Shown here piece after piece: positions 655-31,616 of a stretch of DNA of 35,010 nucleotides. This stretch comes from a virus. Numbering within the stretch: position 1 is the first letter of the stretch; every line of letters begins with the position of its first letter. The position numbers were made by a program, and so were the translations under genes. The stretch lies in IMG/VR virus record IMGVR_UViG_3300049732_000162, positions 1-35,010 of that record; one strand, 5' to 3'. The notes under the pieces are model-generated. The model worked only from the letters and a program-made list of their open reading frames with translations. It made no database searches and was not told the DNA's origin.

Positions 655-1047
655 TCAACCTCGAGTCTCTTCCTCGGAACCGTCCGGCCCCTCGGCTTCG
701 TCTTCCTTCGCCACGCGGATCAGCCGCGCAATGCCGTCGGCGATCAACTCTCGCGCCAGCTTCGCGTCGACCGCGGCGTACTCGCCTTCCTTGCGATGGC
801 GGCCGCCCGGCTCGGTGTACGCCTGGTTGAAGATGACGATTACGTCAGGCATTGACCAGACCTGGCCGGATTCATCCGCGCAAACGCCGGCGTCACTGTA
901 CACCGGCGTCATGCGCGGCTCAACGCGAGCATATTCGCCCTGGCTTGCGATAGCAATCTGATTCGGACGGTTATGCCCGCGCGAAACTATTTTTTCGGTC
1001 CAGCCGTCGGCGGTTCCGGCGGAATATCGACCAGCGCCGCATGCCAT
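655..1047 (-). CDS. Hypothetical acidic protein
   Basis: The open frame is up to 130 residues with a charged, Glu-rich C-terminus and no known domain that I recognise. The start is uncertain. The ATG at 1047 would overlap the end of the proline-rich gene by about 60 bases and has a poor ribosome-binding site. The next ATG is at 912 and gives 86 residues, but the sequence between the two looks protein-like. The gene sits between the proline-rich protein and the small membrane protein and ends one base before the latter. No function can be given. Confidence 0.6.
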   Translation of the reverse strand: MACGAGRYSAGTADGWTEKIVSRGHNRPNQIAIASQGEYARVEPRMTPVYSDAGVCADESGQVWSMPDVIVIFNQAYTEPGGRHRKEGEYAAVDAKLARELIADGIARLIRVAKEDEAEGPDGSEEETRG

Positions 1048-1397
1048 CCGCTGCGCGCGGTATAGACGGCGACAAACGCCTTGTTGACCGGGATCGTCCC
1101 GCCGCCGCCCGGCGGATTCGGCCAGATGCCCGGCGGATAATAAATCGGCGGCGTCGCGATTCCCGCCGGCGGGCCAGGCAGCGCGATCGGCGGCATGATG
1201 ATCCCGCCGCCCGGGAGATGAATCGGCGGCGTCACTTCGTTCGGCGGCTTGGGCGGACCAGGCCAGATTTCAGGCGGAAGCGCGATCGGCAGCGCCGGAC
1301 TCCCGCCGCCTGGCGGATGCGGCCAGACGCCGGGCGGGTACTGGATCGGCGGCGTTGCTTCGCCGCCCGATTGAATCGGCACGATGTATGCGAGCAT
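987..1397 (-). CDS. Proline-rich repeat protein, probable virion accessory protein
   Basis: The product is 136 residues. The ATG at 1397 follows AAAGGAG at a good distance. Residues about 10-100 are degenerate repeats built on the motif PPIxxPPGxWPxPPGGG, seen four or more times with Tyr, His or Leu in the variable places. The last 35 residues are a different, folded-looking segment containing KAFVAVY and GWHAALVDIP. Phages often carry such Pro/Gly/Trp-rich proteins near their fibre and lysis genes; the role is unknown, though extended, surface-exposed parts of the virion are likely. The gene lies downstream of the 5-nt repeat array at 1468-1597, which would be in its leader if transcription comes from the right. 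Confidence 0.8.
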   Translation of the reverse strand: MLAYIVPIQSGGEATPPIQYPPGVWPHPPGGGSPALPIALPPEIWPGPPKPPNEVTPPIHLPGGGIIMPPIALPGPPAGIATPPIYYPPGIWPNPPGGGGTIPVNKAFVAVYTARSGWHAALVDIPPEPPTAGPKK

Positions 1398-1467
1398 TGA
1401 TTTCTCCTTTGAAGGAATTCTGAATTGCGGAGTTTTAATTGCGGATGAATGCAGGACTACAGACTGA

Positions 1468-1597
1468 ATACCTTGCCTTGCCCCACCGAACCGGGCCGCG
1501 CCGCGCCAAGCCCCACCCAACCAGGCCGAACCAAACGACGCCTAACCGCCCCAATCCAAACCACGGCCCGCCCCACCATACGGAGCCACACGGTGCC
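1468..1597 (-). repeat. Pentanucleotide-period array 1 (GGYNN units)
   Basis: Twenty-six consecutive 5-base units with no insertion or deletion. On the minus (coding) strand nearly every unit is GG(C/T)NN; on the plus strand NN(G/A)CC. The two N positions vary freely, so this is a periodic pattern rather than copies of one word. It begins five bases after the stop codon of the HNH gene (TAA, 1603-1601) and runs to 1468. A second array in the same orientation (2492-2601) precedes the partner gene, so the two arrays bracket the gene pair. Confidence 0.9.
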
Positions 1598-1600
1598 GCG

Positions 1601-1921
1601 TTATCCCTCCCAAACCAACTCGCGCCAGTTCGGAGGAATTACTCCATCACGCAACGCCGACGCAATCATGCCCGCGTGCCGATGATCGGCACGCAGAACA
1701 TGACAACGACGGCACAGCGTGCGAAGATTCTTAAACTTGTTGGTTGCCAACTTACCGCTGTGGATATGATCGATCTCCGCGGCTTCCAACGTCACCGGAT
1801 TCTTGCAATGAACACAACGCCGCTTATCGCGTTTCCAGATCGCAGGTCTAAGATTCGCGAACCATACCTCACGAGGCGGACGTTTCTTCGGCACCGTTTT
1901 GCTCTGCGAACCCGACAACAT
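1601..1921 (-). CDS. HNH endonuclease
   Basis: The product is 106 residues from the ATG at 1921; a TTG at 1939 is an alternative. It is a compact HNH nuclease: Cys36-x2-Cys39, then Asp51-His52 (first metal/catalytic His), Asn65 and Cys70-x2-Cys73-His74, which matches the zinc-stapled beta-beta-alpha-metal fold. The basic N-terminus (KKRPPR) would bind nucleic acid. The gene overlaps the end of the RAMP-like gene by 53 bases in another frame, so the two are co-transcribed and translationally linked. Its stop is immediately followed by repeat array 1. HNH proteins in phages can be homing, packaging or defence nucleases; here its fixed place in a repeat-bounded pair suggests it works with its neighbour. 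Confidence 0.88.
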   Translation of the reverse strand: MLSGSQSKTVPKKRPPREVWFANLRPAIWKRDKRRCVHCKNPVTLEAAEIDHIHSGKLATNKFKNLRTLCRRCHVLRADHRHAGMIASALRDGVIPPNWRELVWEG

Positions 1922-2486
1922 CAAACCGCCCGTAACCAATCGAGCGCCCGTTACTCAATCCGACCAATCGGCCCGCGTCCTCGACTACCGCCCTCATTTG
2001 ATCGCGTGACACAAGCGTCTTGTCCCACATGATCGAAAAGGAACACTTCCAGCCCGGCGAAACCGCCAGACGATAGCGGACGTTACGCGCTTTCGTCGAT
2101 GGATTTCTGACGCCGCGGACATCGATATAAACGTCCTGCGTTGAATCCGTCGTCGGTGCGCTTCCATGATTCGGCAGAAAGCGATTCAACAGAACGCGAT
2201 CCTCTTGAACCAGCAATGTCGCGGCAACGAGCGGCTGAATGCTACCGCGCCCTTTCTTGGTATGCCTTGCGGCGTCACGCAGCATCGAAAAGAAGTACGT
2301 GCCCGGAATATATAGTTGCCCGTCCGGCATGACCGAACAGGTTCTCTTCCATTCCTCGGGATCGTTCCCGGCTACGCCCGTGCGCTCTTGTTTTTCGAGC
2401 GGCAACGCGTCCGGCCCAAACTGATGCTGCCATAAAGGACGAGTCCCTATGATTTCAACTCTTGCTGTAACGATATTCTTTCTCAT
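1869..2486 (-). CDS. RAMP/Cas7-like protein (RRM-fold, Gly-rich loop), function unknown
   Basis: The product is 205 residues. The N-terminus is a beta strand ending in IIGTRPL (12-18). The C-terminal part has the order strand (148-156), helix (161-176), glycine-rich loop GLSNGRSIGYGRF (176-188) and strand (189-193). This strand-helix-Gly-loop-strand arrangement is the hallmark of RAMP proteins (Cas5/6/7, Csm3, Cmr4), where the loop contacts RNA. No CRISPR array or other cas gene is nearby. I have an impression that close relatives with conserved RTGVAGNDPEEW occur in other phages, unverified. The ATG at 2486 is preceded by GGAGA, which is itself the last in-register unit of repeat array 2. 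The HNH gene follows with overlap. Confidence 0.72.
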   Translation of the reverse strand: MRKNIVTARVEIIGTRPLWQHQFGPDALPLEKQERTGVAGNDPEEWKRTCSVMPDGQLYIPGTYFFSMLRDAARHTKKGRGSIQPLVAATLLVQEDRVLLNRFLPNHGSAPTTDSTQDVYIDVRGVRNPSTKARNVRYRLAVSPGWKCSFSIMWDKTLVSRDQMRAVVEDAGRLVGLSNGRSIGYGRFDVVGFAEQNGAEETSAS

Positions 2487-2491
2487 CTAAG

Positions 2492-2601
2492 TCTCCAAGC
2501 CTTGCGATGCCTTGCCCAGCCATACCCCGCCTAGCCGAGCCAAGCCGTACCCAACCGCGCCACGCCCGGCCGGACAAATCCATGCCGCGCCAGACCGCGC
2601 C
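2492..2601 (-). repeat. Pentanucleotide-period array 2 (GGYNN units)
   Basis: Twenty-two consecutive 5-base units in perfect register; on the minus strand most read GG(C/T)NN. The last unit, GGAGA (2496-2492), is the ribosome-binding site of the RAMP-like gene starting at 2486. The array therefore forms the 5' leader of the RAMP-HNH mRNA, giving an RNA with a G-G doublet every five bases. Upstream, to 2694, lies an A+T-rich stretch that could hold the promoter, although I see no convincing -35/-10 pair. Confidence 0.9.
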
Positions 2602-2694: not shown

Positions 2695-3987
2695 TTAGAT
2701 ACTCAGTACTCGGGCGATTTTTGTAGGTTGTAACATCAAATAAGTCAAACCCCACGTCATTGCATCGGCCCTGTTCGGACTCTTGCTCATGCCCGGCACA
2801 TAGTTAGTTAGCTCATCCTCCAACTGTGGGAAGCCTCCAACCATATGCACTTTGCCTTGCTCGAATAACGCGGCGACGGGCTCCATTCGCGCCACTTTTC
2901 CACGGCTCGCCGTCACCTTCGTATAGCTGATATTTTTGCGCTGCGTGTACAGCAGGCTCGAAATCAGATCGCCGCCCTGGTTCGCTTCGCCGATGATCCG
3001 ATCGGCCGAGAATTCGTCATAGGCGAGCACGGCACGTGTGATCCACTCATCGGGCGACGAACGTCCCGACCTGTCGGACAATACATAGCCGTGCCCGTCC
3101 ACGCCCAAGCCGGTCACGACAATACCGCATTCGTCCGACTCCGGGCCACTCGTCACCGCGGGGTCTATGGCCACCGCAATGCGGACCAATTCCGGTGCCG
3201 CCTTGACGCGTAATTCCTCGATCCGCGCCCGCGTCCACAGCGCGCCCTCAGCTTCCTCGAGCAGTTCGCCTTCAAGCTCCTGCCGCCCGATGCGCGTGCC
3301 GCCGTAGATGCGCTGGTAGTCGGCGAGCGCCGACTGCGCGAGATTCGCCCGGTTATCGAATGTGGATCCGCGCGTCACCAGCGTGCCCGGATCGGCGATC
3401 AGATCGCGCAGGAACTTCGACGGCCGCGGCGTCGTGGTCGCGATGATCCGCGGATTCGCGCCGAGCCGCAGGCCCATCTTGAGGTTGACCCAGAGCGCCT
3501 CGGGATCGGGATACACCGCCAATTCATCGAGCGCCGCAAACGAATGCTGCGGTCCGCGCAGCCGCTCCGGTTCTTCCGCGGAATAGAGCGTCGCCATCGC
3601 GCCGTTGCGGAATTGCACGCGGCGCTTCGACGGCATGTACTCGGGCCGCTCTTCTTTCGGAAAGATGCTGAGCAGACCCGATTCGCCCTGAATCATGACA
3701 TCGCGGCAATCGGCGGAAGTGGGCGCGATGATCGCGATACGGGCATTCGGATCGCTCATCGCGACCTCGCGCACCGCCTCGGCCGATGAGCGCGTCTTTC
3801 CCCAACCGCGCCCGCTGAGCACGAGCCATACGCGCCAGTCACCATCGGGCATGACCTGTTCCCGCCGCGCCCAGAAGCGCCAGTCATACAGCAGTTGCTC
3901 GGCGTCCGCTTCGTCGAGCGCGAGCGCGCAGGCGCGGACTTCGGCGGGCGTGAGGTTGCGGGTTGCGAAGGATTCAGCGGTGAGCAT
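2695..3987 (-). CDS. terL: Terminase large subunit
   Basis: The product is 430 residues and powers DNA packaging into the prohead. Walker A is SGRGWGKT at 58-65; the Walker B/catalytic pair is LDE at 153-155; the coupling motif IIATTTPRPS follows near 190. The nuclease half has the RNase H-like acidic residues in VAIDPA (about 274), GEANQGG (about 331) and NRADAMTWG near the C-terminus. Length and motifs fit a complete enzyme. The ATG at 3987 directly follows the stop of the gene at 3988-4209 (TGAATG), and both codons are formed by the GCTGANN repeat, so the first residues MLTAES come from repeat sequence. The same MLTAES opens the unrelated gene at 30753-31052. No classical small subunit is next to it. 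Confidence 0.96.
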   Translation of the reverse strand: MLTAESFATRNLTPAEVRACALALDEADAEQLLYDWRFWARREQVMPDGDWRVWLVLSGRGWGKTRSSAEAVREVAMSDPNARIAIIAPTSADCRDVMIQGESGLLSIFPKEERPEYMPSKRRVQFRNGAMATLYSAEEPERLRGPQHSFAALDELAVYPDPEALWVNLKMGLRLGANPRIIATTTPRPSKFLRDLIADPGTLVTRGSTFDNRANLAQSALADYQRIYGGTRIGRQELEGELLEEAEGALWTRARIEELRVKAAPELVRIAVAIDPAVTSGPESDECGIVVTGLGVDGHGYVLSDRSGRSSPDEWITRAVLAYDEFSADRIIGEANQGGDLISSLLYTQRKNISYTKVTASRGKVARMEPVAALFEQGKVHMVGGFPQLEDELTNYVPGMSKSPNRADAMTWGLTYLMLQPTKIARVLSI

Positions 3988-5953: not shown

Positions 5954-6200
5954 GACACACGACTACTACCAGTTACTGCCTATGAAGAGCTAGCATTTTC
6001 TGTCGCTGCTGTGGCGATCAACCGCCTCTTCACTCGCGGCCCGGAACAAAGACAAGTTCCGAATACTTTCTTGGGTGCAGGTATTATGGTCAAGATTTCA
6101 AGACGATGTCAATCGGATTTGCGCGAAGGCAGATGCTCATTCCGCGCAATGCGCACATGACACTAGAAATTTAGTTCGCATATCGCGTATCATCGGGCTT
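5954..6200. other. Low-coding, A+T-richer stretch upstream of the basic protein
   Basis: I see no convincing gene here. A 71-codon plus-strand frame from an ATG at 5945 and an N-terminal extension of the next gene from 6075 are both open, but neither resembles a folded protein. Base composition is closer to 50% GC than its surroundings. A TATCAT box at 6188-6193 lies seven bases before the GTG of the next gene. Being next to the Rep-like gene, an origin is possible; I see no clear iterons. Confidence 0.4.
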
Positions 6201-9353: not shown

Positions 9354-9902
9354 ATGGAACAGCAAGCCCTGATACCGGATATCCTGGTCGAGCGCGAAGA
9401 GCGCCCGAAGCCCAACGGCGGCAACGGTCGCCCGCCTGGCGCGACGAATCTTCGCCGCCGGGCGCTCGAGCGGGCCGCGCAATCAGAAGCCCTGCCGATC
9501 ATTCTGAAGCTGATCGATCTCGCGAAGCAAGGCGATACGCTCGCCGCCCGGATCATCCTCGACCGCATCTGGCCCCGACCGAAGACCGCGCCCATTACCG
9601 TCGACCTGCCCAAAACCGGAACACCTTCGGAAATCCGCGCCGCGATGCATGACCTGCTGCACAAGATCGCAACCGGCGAAATCCCGACCGATGACGGCCA
9701 ACTCCTGATGGCGACGATGCGCGATGTCCTGGACGCGCACCGGATACAAACCATCGACCTGACGCCATCGCTTGCCGCGCCCCAATCGGACGCCAGAACG
9801 GCGCTTGCCGAGCGGCTCGAGCGGATCATCGAAGCGAGAGAGCAATCCGCGGTCAGTGATCAGCAGTCAGCCGAAGACGCAAGGCTGAACGCTGAAAGCT
9901 GA
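9354..9902 (+). CDS. DUF5681/small-terminase-like protein
   Basis: The product is 182 residues. Residues about 20-85 (KPNGGNGRPPGATNLRR..., then ALPIILKLIDLAKQGDTLAARIILDRIWPRPK) follow the pattern of DUF5681 and related small-terminase-like proteins: a basic GRPxGxxN start, a helix pair with a GD-x-x-AA-x-x-x-LDR motif, and a P-rich end. This is one candidate for the small terminase subunit, although it lies on the opposite strand and over 5 kb from terL. The last 20 residues (SAVSDQQSAED...LNAES) are encoded by heptamer repeat units, and its TGA stop is formed by one, which suggests the gene's end has been altered by the repeat. Confidence 0.7.
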   Translation: MEQQALIPDILVEREERPKPNGGNGRPPGATNLRRRALERAAQSEALPIILKLIDLAKQGDTLAARIILDRIWPRPKTAPITVDLPKTGTPSEIRAAMHDLLHKIATGEIPTDDGQLLMATMRDVLDAHRIQTIDLTPSLAAPQSDARTALAERLERIIEAREQSAVSDQQSAEDARLNAES

Positions 9903-9907
9903 ACGCT
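9853..9907. repeat. GCTGANN/TCAGCNN heptamer repeats at the end of the 9354 gene
   Basis: Three TCAG(C/T)-type units (9853-9871) and three GCTGANN units (9884-9904) overlap the 3' end of the gene; the TGA stop (9900-9902) is part of a unit. Confidence 0.7.
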
Positions 9908-25991: not shown

Positions 25992-25996
25992 GAAGA

Positions 25997-26048
25997 GCTT
26001 TCAGCGGTCAGCAATCAGCTTTCAGCGGTCAGCAATCAGCTTTCAGCT
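25997..26048. repeat. TCAGCNN heptamer repeats before the head-tail adaptor gene
   Basis: About seven TCAGCNN-type units, on the minus strand GCTGANN, between the stop of the gene at 26043 and the start of the adaptor gene at 25991. The stop of the 26043 gene lies in a unit. Confidence 0.75.
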
Positions 26049-26216
26049 TTCGTCGCGTTCATCGTCTGCGTCGTCGTCACAGGCATGGAGGCATTCATCA
26101 ACTTCATCCCACCAAGTGTCTTCGCCATCGCAGTAACACGCCTGACCGCAATCGGGACAGTTATGCGCAGCAATAAGCTGACCGCTGACCGCTGACCGCT
26201 GATCGCTATCCCCCAT
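26043..26216 (-). CDS. Small zinc-ribbon, acidic phage protein
   Basis: The product is 57 residues from the ATG at 26216, inside the end of the connector gene (11-base overlap). The first ~16 residues (GDSDQRSAVSGQ) are encoded by heptamer repeats. Then a compact zinc motif follows: CPDCGQACYCDGEDTWWDE, then ECLHAC, and an Asp/Glu-rich tail. Small phage proteins with CPxCxxxCYCDGED are, from memory, widespread and of unknown role. Confidence 0.7.
   Translation of the reverse strand: MGDSDQRSAVSGQLIAAHNCPDCGQACYCDGEDTWWDEVDECLHACDDDADDERDES
26177..26210. repeat. GCTGANN heptamer array at the start of the 26043 gene
   Basis: GCTGACC three times and GCTGATC once, in exact 7-base register, then a broken unit. 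They are read in frame as the N-terminus of the gene at 26043-26216 and lie next to the end of the connector gene. Confidence 0.75.
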
Positions 26217-26955: not shown

Positions 26956-27022
26956 TGACCACATCCGTTGGACGCCCCTCTTATCCCCAGGGGATAAGTC
27001 GGCATCCTGGACACGTGTGGTC
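26956..27022. repeat. Full dyad element, copy 3
   Basis: A 67-bp element: TGACCACA at the left, TGTGGTC at the right (inverted ends), a perfect 19-bp palindrome at 26980-26998 (CTTATCCCCAGGGGATAAG). Its right end overlaps the capsid stop codon (TAG, 27024-27022). It is the only full copy in the structural operon, between capsid and connector genes. Confidence 0.82.
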
Positions 27023-28203
27023 TACGCCGGCGTTGCGCCGTTCGCGAATGCCGCCGGCTGGAAGATCAGCAGTACCAGTCTCTCCTCAACCCTGATCGTC
27101 AGCATGTTTTTCTCGAAATCATCGACGTTCTGCTCCGCGATTTGTACATTCACTTCCTCGCGGTCGAGAATCAGCGAATTGCCCTGGAACGCGCCGACCA
27201 GGAACGTGCCGGCCGCCTGGTGAGTCGACATCACCATTCTGACGCCCCAAATCCGCGGCGCAGTCGTATAGTCGATCGGGTTGGCAAACAGGTAGTTGCC
27301 CTGCGAATTCTTCGCCAGCGCGACCTTGGCCCAGTCGGCGGGATTCAGCACCAGACCATCGGCCATGTAGCCCGCCGATGCCAGCGTAAAGATCACCGTC
27401 CCGATCGAATCCATGAGCGTCGCGGGCAGCGCCGGCGCGGCGACATCGGTCGCGACAGGATTGAAGCCCTTGAGCTGCGGACTCGTGCCGGTGCCGTTCA
27501 GCAATTGGTTGTCTTCCGCCTTTTTCACGCCATAGATCCCGTTGCTTTCGATCTGAGACGCGACCGCCGGCAAATCGTCGTACATCTGCCGCGAGATCTT
27601 GAAAATGTGTGCGATCGTCTCGACGGGCAGCGTTCGCGGATTGAACACTTTATCGGATTTGGGCTTGGCTGCGCCCTCGGCTACCGGCGCGGCGGAGTTC
27701 GTGAAGCTCGTCTCCTCGACAAACTGCACGGCGCCCGACGTCGTGCGGCCTTGCGGCACAAGAGATCGCACGCCGAGCGGCAGGCGCGCAGCCGAGCCGA
27801 CGCCGACAAACTCCGTTATGGCGCGCGAAATGCCCACCATATCTTTCTGCTCGAGCCCGCCGCGGAGCGTCGCAGTGTACTGGCCGTGGCCGCCCTGCTT
27901 CACGAAGGCGAGGAAGCCGGGATCTTCGATGAACCGCTGGCCGATCGATTTCGGCGATTCCGGCACGGCCGGCGCCTGGCGCTGCTTTTCCTCGATCGCA
28001 TCGAGCCGCGCCGTTGCGGCTTCGTGCTTCTTCTGGAAATCCGCCATGCCCTCATCGAGCTTTCCGAGCTTGGTGAGGATTTCGCCCTGCGGCTTGCCTT
28101 GCTTGATCGCTTCGGCAAGCTGCGCGTAGAGCGGTTTGTATTCCGTCAGGCCTTTTTTCAATTCGTCGATTTCGGCCGGAGTCAACGTTCCATTATCAGG
28201 CAT
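27022..28203 (-). CDS. HK97-family major capsid protein
   Basis: The product is 393 residues. Residues 1-90 are a charged coiled coil (the delta scaffold domain: QKKHEAATARLDAIEEKQ), which the protease removes. The mature part starts near KSIGQRF and has the family traits: GGHGQYTATLRGG, the central FVEETSFTNSAAPVAEGA, IFKISRQMYDDLPAVASQI, then LLNGTGTSPQLKGF and ILDREEVNVQIAEQNVDDFEKNM. The ATG at 28203 follows AAAGGAA. Self-scaffolding plus a neighbouring protease give the HK97-type maturation path. Confidence 0.96.
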   Translation of the reverse strand: MPDNGTLTPAEIDELKKGLTEYKPLYAQLAEAIKQGKPQGEILTKLGKLDEGMADFQKKHEAATARLDAIEEKQRQAPAVPESPKSIGQRFIEDPGFLAFVKQGGHGQYTATLRGGLEQKDMVGISRAITEFVGVGSAARLPLGVRSLVPQGRTTSGAVQFVEETSFTNSAAPVAEGAAKPKSDKVFNPRTLPVETIAHIFKISRQMYDDLPAVASQIESNGIYGVKKAEDNQLLNGTGTSPQLKGFNPVATDVAAPALPATLMDSIGTVIFTLASAGYMADGLVLNPADWAKVALAKNSQGNYLFANPIDYTTAPRIWGVRMVMSTHQAAGTFLVGAFQGNSLILDREEVNVQIAEQNVDDFEKNMLTIRVEERLVLLIFQPAAFANGATPA

Positions 28204-31353: not shown

Positions 31354-31616
31354 GCGTCCACCGGGAGGATCGTTATGGTCGCTTTGACTCTCCCGCTCCC
31401 ATCGCAAGTCGAGCAAGGCTTCCCACGCGCGTTCTCGCCCCATTCGCAACGTCGCCGCGAACGTCGCCGCGAGATTCCGAAGGATAGCGCTCCACAGCCG
31501 GATTCTCTGGCATTCTTGCGATACCACGCGCACCAGCCGCATAATTCATGGCATTCCGGGCAATCCAGTGATACGATCCGCTCGTTTAGCTGACCGCTGA
31601 TCGCTGACAGCTTCAT
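31350..31616 (-). CDS. Zinc-finger protein with DnaJ-like CxxCxGxG motif
   Basis: The product is 88 residues from the ATG at 31616, whose first residues (KLSAISGQ) are encoded by heptamer repeats. It has CPECHELCGWC (about 19-29) and, near the end, GKPCSTCDGSGRV (about 65-77), a DnaJ-type CxxCxGxG repeat. The two pairs could bind one or two zinc ions. Chaperone or assembly function is possible. It lies directly after the portal gene with an ATGA-type overlap. Confidence 0.7.
   Translation of the reverse strand: MKLSAISGQLNERIVSLDCPECHELCGWCAWYRKNARESGCGALSFGISRRRSRRRCEWGENARGKPCSTCDGSGRVKATITILPVDA
31588..31612. repeat. GCTGANN heptamer units at the portal/31350 gene junction
   Basis: Three units of GCTGANN (GCTGACC, GCTGATC, GCTGACA) at 31589-31609. 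They code for the N-terminus of the gene at 31350-31616 and lie next to the portal stop codon. Confidence 0.7.

Follow-up and report, generated by a model that had tools for sequence, protein, structure and literature searches.

An array of 26 five-base units in the genome of an uncultivated phage is almost certainly a vrRNA gene of a VIPR (Viral Interference Programmable Repeat) system, which appears to carry guides against the major capsid gene (array 1) and, in a second array nearby, the terminase large-subunit gene (array 2) of related, competing phages. VIPR was described in a 2026 preprint (PMC13142463; bioRxiv 2026.04.26.720920) as a phage RAMP protein, Vipr, together with vrRNAs of alternating GGY and NN; GGY serves as the scaffold, each NN base-pairs with the DNA of the target, one base, usually at the wobble position, is skipped per dinucleotide, and the system silences competing phages (PMC13142463). 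Vipr is a minimal RAMP protein with an RRM core and a glycine-rich loop, and the vrRNAs are intergenic, tandem YNNGG repeats of 9-16 units that flank vipr and possess an invariable, structured 3' tail (PMC13142463). Seven VIPR types have been distinguished, some with predicted nucleases, and accessory genes vap1-6 are recognized (PMC13142463). The system is a new member of this known kind; unusual here are its being phage-borne with an HNH gene, its apparent insertion at the end of the terminase gene, and guides directed against the terminase and capsid genes of relatives.

Arrays and layout of the locus

The window, i.e., the whole stretch of 35,010 nt that was analysed, carries a 127-bp direct repeat at its two ends, and a second contig of the same phage (L188, 99.98-100% identity) spans the join; because of this, the window most likely represents the entire genome (~34.9 kb) in circularly permuted form. 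L188 begins inside array 1, and its portion of the array is identical, without variation. A BLAST search of the region against annotated phages returned no match. On the minus strand, the order is terminase large subunit, array 2, vipr, HNH gene, array 1, and a gene for a Pro-rich protein. The features are as follows:

1457..1471, minus strand: remnant of the ancestral terminase 3' end, GTATTCAGTCTGTAG (= ..VFSL*), from comparison with the relative L005 (GGGTCGCGTATTCAGTTTGTAG); directly abuts array 1
1468..1487, minus strand: last four units of array 1 (GGTGG GGCAA GGCAA GGTAT), no target match
1488..1597, minus strand: guide part of array 1, 22 units, whose NN spell part of the major capsid gene in related phages
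1601..1939, minus strand: open reading frame of the HNH endonuclease gene, 112 aa (Pfam HNH, E=4.6e-7)
1869..2486, minus strand: vipr, predicted 205-aa RAMP protein, phrog_4652
2492..2521, minus strand: 3' part of array 2 (GGCTG GGCAA GGCAT CGCAA GGCTT GGAGA), presumed tail
2492-2601, minus strand: array 2, 22 units, on the same strand as array 1
2522..2601, minus strand: guide part of array 2, 16 units, which decode to the terminase large-subunit motif IPYEKVHATRGKIARA
2695..3987, minus strand: terminase large-subunit gene of the carrier
2885..2932, plus strand: the carrier's own array-2 target site (antisense), altered (ISYTKVTASRGKVARM)
27022..28203, minus strand: major capsid gene of the carrier (Phage_capsid)

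As the original prediction held, array 1 (minus strand, 1597->1468) consists of 26 five-base units spanning 130 nt with zero indels. GG begins 22 of the 26 units, the exceptions being CGTGT, CGTAT, GCCGT, and CGTTT, and strict GGY is found in 20; on the 3' side, GG is perfect in 13 consecutive units. All six units that deviate from GGY fall in the 5' half, a distribution that was counted against the VIPR reading. The expected lag-5 autocorrelation was borne out, with identities of 0.50-0.56 at lags 5, 10, 15, and 20 relative to ~0.34 expected (z ~3-4) and no raised identity at other lags. When the entire window was scanned for periods of 2-15, the period-5 arrays at 1471-1575 and 2496-2600 ranked near the top, and array 2 gave the strongest signal of all. 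As had also been claimed, the array is neither a microsatellite nor coding.

A segment common to the two arrays, G-GGCAA-GGCA (GGCAAGGCA), is located where target matching ends and presumably marks the start of a vrRNA tail. In array 2, the 3' part extends into the ribosome-binding region of vipr. Beside the two window arrays, neither a conserved structured tail nor a terminator was recognized, a promoter/terminator scan gave no signal exceeding shuffles, and an Rfam search yielded no significant match. Several vipr relatives possess cGAAAC plus a hairpin or terminator near their arrays. Specifically, the arrays of seven loci with vipr and HNH genes (L284 at 5990-6120, L304 at 2919-3040, L313, L308, L303, L301, and L283) end in cGAAAC and a hairpin, or in a hairpin with a T run that resembles an intrinsic terminator, and these ends are likely the conserved vrRNA tail of the vipr-HNH clade.

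Comparison with relatives bears on the origin of the locus. The terminase of L005 terminates in ..GGGTCGCGTATTCAGTTTGTAG, with the Pro-rich gene following within ~120 bp. The window's terminase has an end of its own, a different sequence of lower GC that is unlike the remnant GTATTCAGTCTGTAG, and the 3' third of the gene (~3087-2695) is more divergent from relatives, with a GC content of 0.42-0.59 versus ~0.67. Because the remnant follows the last unit of array 1 while the terminase ends differently, the segment reaching from the 3' end of the terminase to array 1 is read, from sequence comparison, as an insertion or replacement.

Two further observations concern the surrounding genome. The Pro-rich protein (window 987-1397, minus strand) contains repeated PPIxxPPGxWPxPP motifs, its DNA is 89% identical to that of L005, and it lies near the terminase region in several relatives. 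In addition, the carrier phage and its relatives possess intergenic heptanucleotide arrays, GCTGANN (TCAGCNN), with five constant and two variable bases in a layout like that of GGYNN; these are located at window positions 25996-26047, 26177-26207, 9884-9907, and 31589-31612, and after the terminase in L003 and L005.

The Vipr protein and its HNH partner

A search of viral contigs for ten strict GGYNN units recovered at least 120 contigs, with diverse NN fill, GC contents of 0.39 to 0.73, and arrays almost always on one strand. Clustering of the flanking genes, with no prior expectation, yielded one dominant family of ~200 aa that includes the protein encoded at window 1869-2486. This family was present at 54 loci at first pass, and an HMM found it in 85 of 120 array pieces among the matches listed. 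All 54 aligned members match phrog_4652, a family of unknown function, and a profile of these 54 array-neighbouring relatives matched PDB entry 36pp ("SUSP1 Vipr protein") with E=6.3e-46, the next match, Csm5, being far weaker. An AlphaFold2 model of the window protein (pLDDT 88.6) was most similar in Foldseek to Csm3/Cas7 subunits (E ~4e-9), and a glycine-rich loop, G[LI].(D/N)GR-SIGYGRF, is conserved in the family. Homology and predicted fold together identify the protein between the arrays as a Vipr. A search with this protein found no match in annotated phages. Relatives of vipr occur in bacterial genomes (Bryobacterales, Paenibacillus, Bacillus, Chloroflexales, and Nostoc), the nearest, at 69% identity, residing in a metagenome-assembled genome of Bryobacterales (Acidobacteriota), which hints at Acidobacteriota as the host phylum.

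The exact five-base spacing had been taken as a sign of a periodically binding protein, and a neighbouring gene fits that suggestion, for it encodes a RAMP/Cas7-like Vipr, which binds GGY/NN RNA (PMC13142463). Array 1 most likely acts as RNA rather than as a DNA binding site.

The same scan revealed some variation among arrays. In L110, L122, L150, and L170, blocks of ~7-11 GGYNN units are joined through a constant shift of four bases (cgca or ggca), with many blocks per locus, and these probably correspond to the vrRNA arrays that PMC13142463 mentions as staggered or overlapping. Two other families that recur beside GGYNN arrays (L085, L090, L119, L133, L140, and others), one of ~166 aa (18 loci) and one of ~160 aa, are candidates for further accessory genes. 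Finally, the matches L182, L189, and L190 are plain pentanucleotide microsatellites (GGCAA, GGCAC, and GGTCT) and not guides.

Directly downstream of vipr lies the HNH gene. Among bacterial genome records, 31 of 31 vipr relatives have the same gene at this position, as do 8 of 13 relatives in viruses; it is absent from this position in all 85 viprs that the first array scan yielded (among the matches listed). Its conservation directly after vipr in relatives indicates that it is a clade-specific accessory and not a chance neighbour. The window protein is 75%, 66%, and 56% identical to its counterparts in L282, L287, and L284, respectively. Since the relatives begin with M-P-[KR]-K-R-P-P, translation likely starts at the GTG at 1894, giving a protein of 97 aa (about 1601-1894). 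It is likely a Vap-like accessory protein of vipr.

Targets decoded from the two arrays

Decoding joined the NN of each unit with one wildcard base (skip = 1). Read in this manner, the first 17 units of array 2 match up to 29 of 34 NN bases (L002, L011, and L012) in the terminase genes of many relatives, in antisense and at one homologous place; with skips of 0, 2, and 3, the 22-26 matches were scattered over unrelated places, and shuffling the order of the units gave at most 24. In both arrays, the skipped base is the codon wobble position in the true frame. Translated as codons, the array-2 guide spells [IM]PY[DE][KN]V[HQ]ATRG[KN][IM]A[RS]A, and the terminases of relatives possess INVPYEKVHASRGKTARA (L012) and VPVTIVHATRGKNARA (L014) at this place. 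When nine decoded units were searched against 2.9 million viral contigs, both exact matches fell in terminase genes at EKVHATRGK, in homologous codons of distant phages; a control in which the order of the nine units was reversed gave four, all outside terminase genes, such that the raw count of two is not above chance and only the place of the matches is.

For array 1, all 26 units match 37 of 52 NN bases in the antisense of the L204 and L205 capsid genes, at one place in L204-L206, relative to a maximum of 33/52 (mean 30.8) for shuffled units. Over ten consecutive units, the agreement with L204-L206 is 19/20. These three sequences were fetched only after the capsid target had been predicted from weaker matches, namely to the window's own capsid gene and its L012 homologue; they are the closest of the capsid-gene relatives then obtained and gave the best array-1 match overall. 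The decoded peptide is [DE]GAA[KN]P[HQ][RS][DE][KN]TYA..TPP[IM][DE]TV (cf. EGAAKPKSDKVFTPTTQPVET); in short, array 1 spells EGAAKPxSDK...PPIETV, part of the major capsid protein. When 377 arrays were searched against the same DNA, the top rank went to array 2, with array 1 in sixth place. A target matching perfectly over the full length was not found, and exact 10-unit patterns of arrays 1 and 2 gave zero matches.

The carrier's own genes match less well. At the array-2 site, its altered terminase agrees at 21 of 32 bases, which is not above chance, versus 23-28 in the close relatives L002-L014, and array 2 has no match in its own genome that exceeds shuffles. The carrier's copy of the array-1 target (27614-27691) scores 31/52, with 17/20 in the core, and the separation of own from rival gene is weaker for capsid than for terminase; this remaining self-match was counted against the VIPR reading. 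No GGYNN array was present in the fetched DNA of 80 terminase relatives.

One part of the original prediction, that the fourth and fifth positions of each unit vary freely, does not hold: because the NN, read with the one-base-skip rule, spell a segment of the capsid gene of related phages, they carry information and are not free filling. This also bears on the notion that the array is a cis-acting, periodic binding site (for a TRAP-like ring or a filament protein, or as an R-loop- or G-quadruplex-prone tract) that regulates the downstream gene and whose NN hold no message. Array 2 does extend into the start region of vipr, and most arrays share the coding strand of the genes beside them, with 112 of 146 downstream among the matches listed; however, the fit of the decoded NN to two homologous gene segments far exceeds that of shuffled orders and other skips, and the notion is scarcely tenable. 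A TRAP-like ring with a 5-nt period, an R-loop/G-quadruplex tract, and a Shine-Dalgarno-like array were dropped as a group because the NN proved informative.

With the vrRNA reading, array 1 would be transcribed from the minus strand, and Vipr subunits would bind its GGY triplets to form a ribonucleoprotein, presenting the NN for pairing with DNA while one target base is skipped per dinucleotide. Guided by array 1, the complex would reach the major capsid gene of related competitors and, guided by array 2, their terminase large-subunit gene, silencing these phages as a result. Synonymous changes in a target would give no escape, because the skipped base is the codon wobble position. The small HNH nuclease is a likely accessory that may cut the target or help to silence it.

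Both guides correspond to the antisense strand of their target genes, and the best fold matches of Vipr are subunits of type III and VII CRISPR systems, whose complexes target RNA. These features would suit a ribonucleoprotein that binds capsid and terminase mRNA and blocks translation, rather than one that binds DNA. However, VIPR of SUSP1 binds dsDNA, silences from either strand, and has targets on both strands (PMC13142463), and the common orientation of two guides may be chance, one in two; antisense action on RNA thus seems quite improbable, and silencing through DNA is preferred.

It is also tempting to view the vipr-HNH-array cassette as a mobile element that spreads by RNA-guided homing, much like a gene drive. 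The array-2 ribonucleoprotein would guide HNH to cassette-free terminase genes, recognized through a gapped code in which wobble positions do not count, and repair of the cut from the carrier would copy in the cassette along with a guide-resistant terminase 3' end, as in intronless homing. The position of the cassette at the 3' end of array 2's own target gene, ~200 bp from the site, agrees with this, as do the terminase remnant abutting array 1, the divergent, lower-GC 3' third of the terminase (as after co-conversion), the altered target site of the carrier, and the conservation of HNH beside vipr. By contrast, the capsid gene that array 1 targets lies over 8 kb from the cassette on the circular genome and has no cassette of its own, the vipr-HNH cassettes of other phages adjoin tape-measure or tail-fibre genes, no convincing own-locus target was found in other vipr-HNH loci, and cutting by a VIPR-HNH complex is putative. 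Homing is therefore considered unlikely, albeit less so than antisense action, and guided interference with competing phages is the favoured reading; the locus is nonetheless a concrete candidate for RNA-guided homing.

Taken as a whole, the locus serves as an independent test, from a phage that has not been cultivated, of the VIPR code as a predictor of targets: its arrays spell parts of two essential late genes of the carrier's relatives, terminase and major capsid, and can be read even as peptides. It also provides an example of a phage with a nuclease-bearing VIPR and agrees with exclusion between phages.

Comparison with known systems

The locus resembles the VIPR systems of SUSP1 and P. 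fulva type II in its ~200-aa Vipr RAMP protein beside GGY/NN arrays, in the reading of NN with a 1-nt skip at the codon wobble position, and in having targets in competing phages. It differs in that an HNH nuclease replaces vap1 as the accessory gene, the guides target two genes of close relatives, terminase and major capsid, and the locus appears to have been inserted at the terminase 3' end. Relative to the 9-16 units of reported VIPR guides, array 2 has ~16 and array 1 has 22, the greater length of the latter being counted against the assignment. The nuclease-bearing VIPR types III-V likewise combine vipr with a predicted nuclease gene and have relatives in bacterial genomes; types III and V are found mainly in host defence islands (PMC13142463), whereas the window locus is phage-borne.

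Similarities also extend to the Cas7/Csm3 backbone of class 1 CRISPR-Cas systems, which shares the RAMP fold, periodic RNA binding, and interrupted pairing, but here the period is 5 nt rather than 6 nt and two of every five guide bases pair. No CRISPR array or cas operon was found near the locus, which holds only vipr, HNH, and the GGYNN arrays. Finally, as in intronless homing by phage HNH endonucleases, a small HNH gene is inserted beside an altered terminase gene; unlike those endonucleases, the HNH protein described here belongs to a conserved vipr operon with guide arrays.
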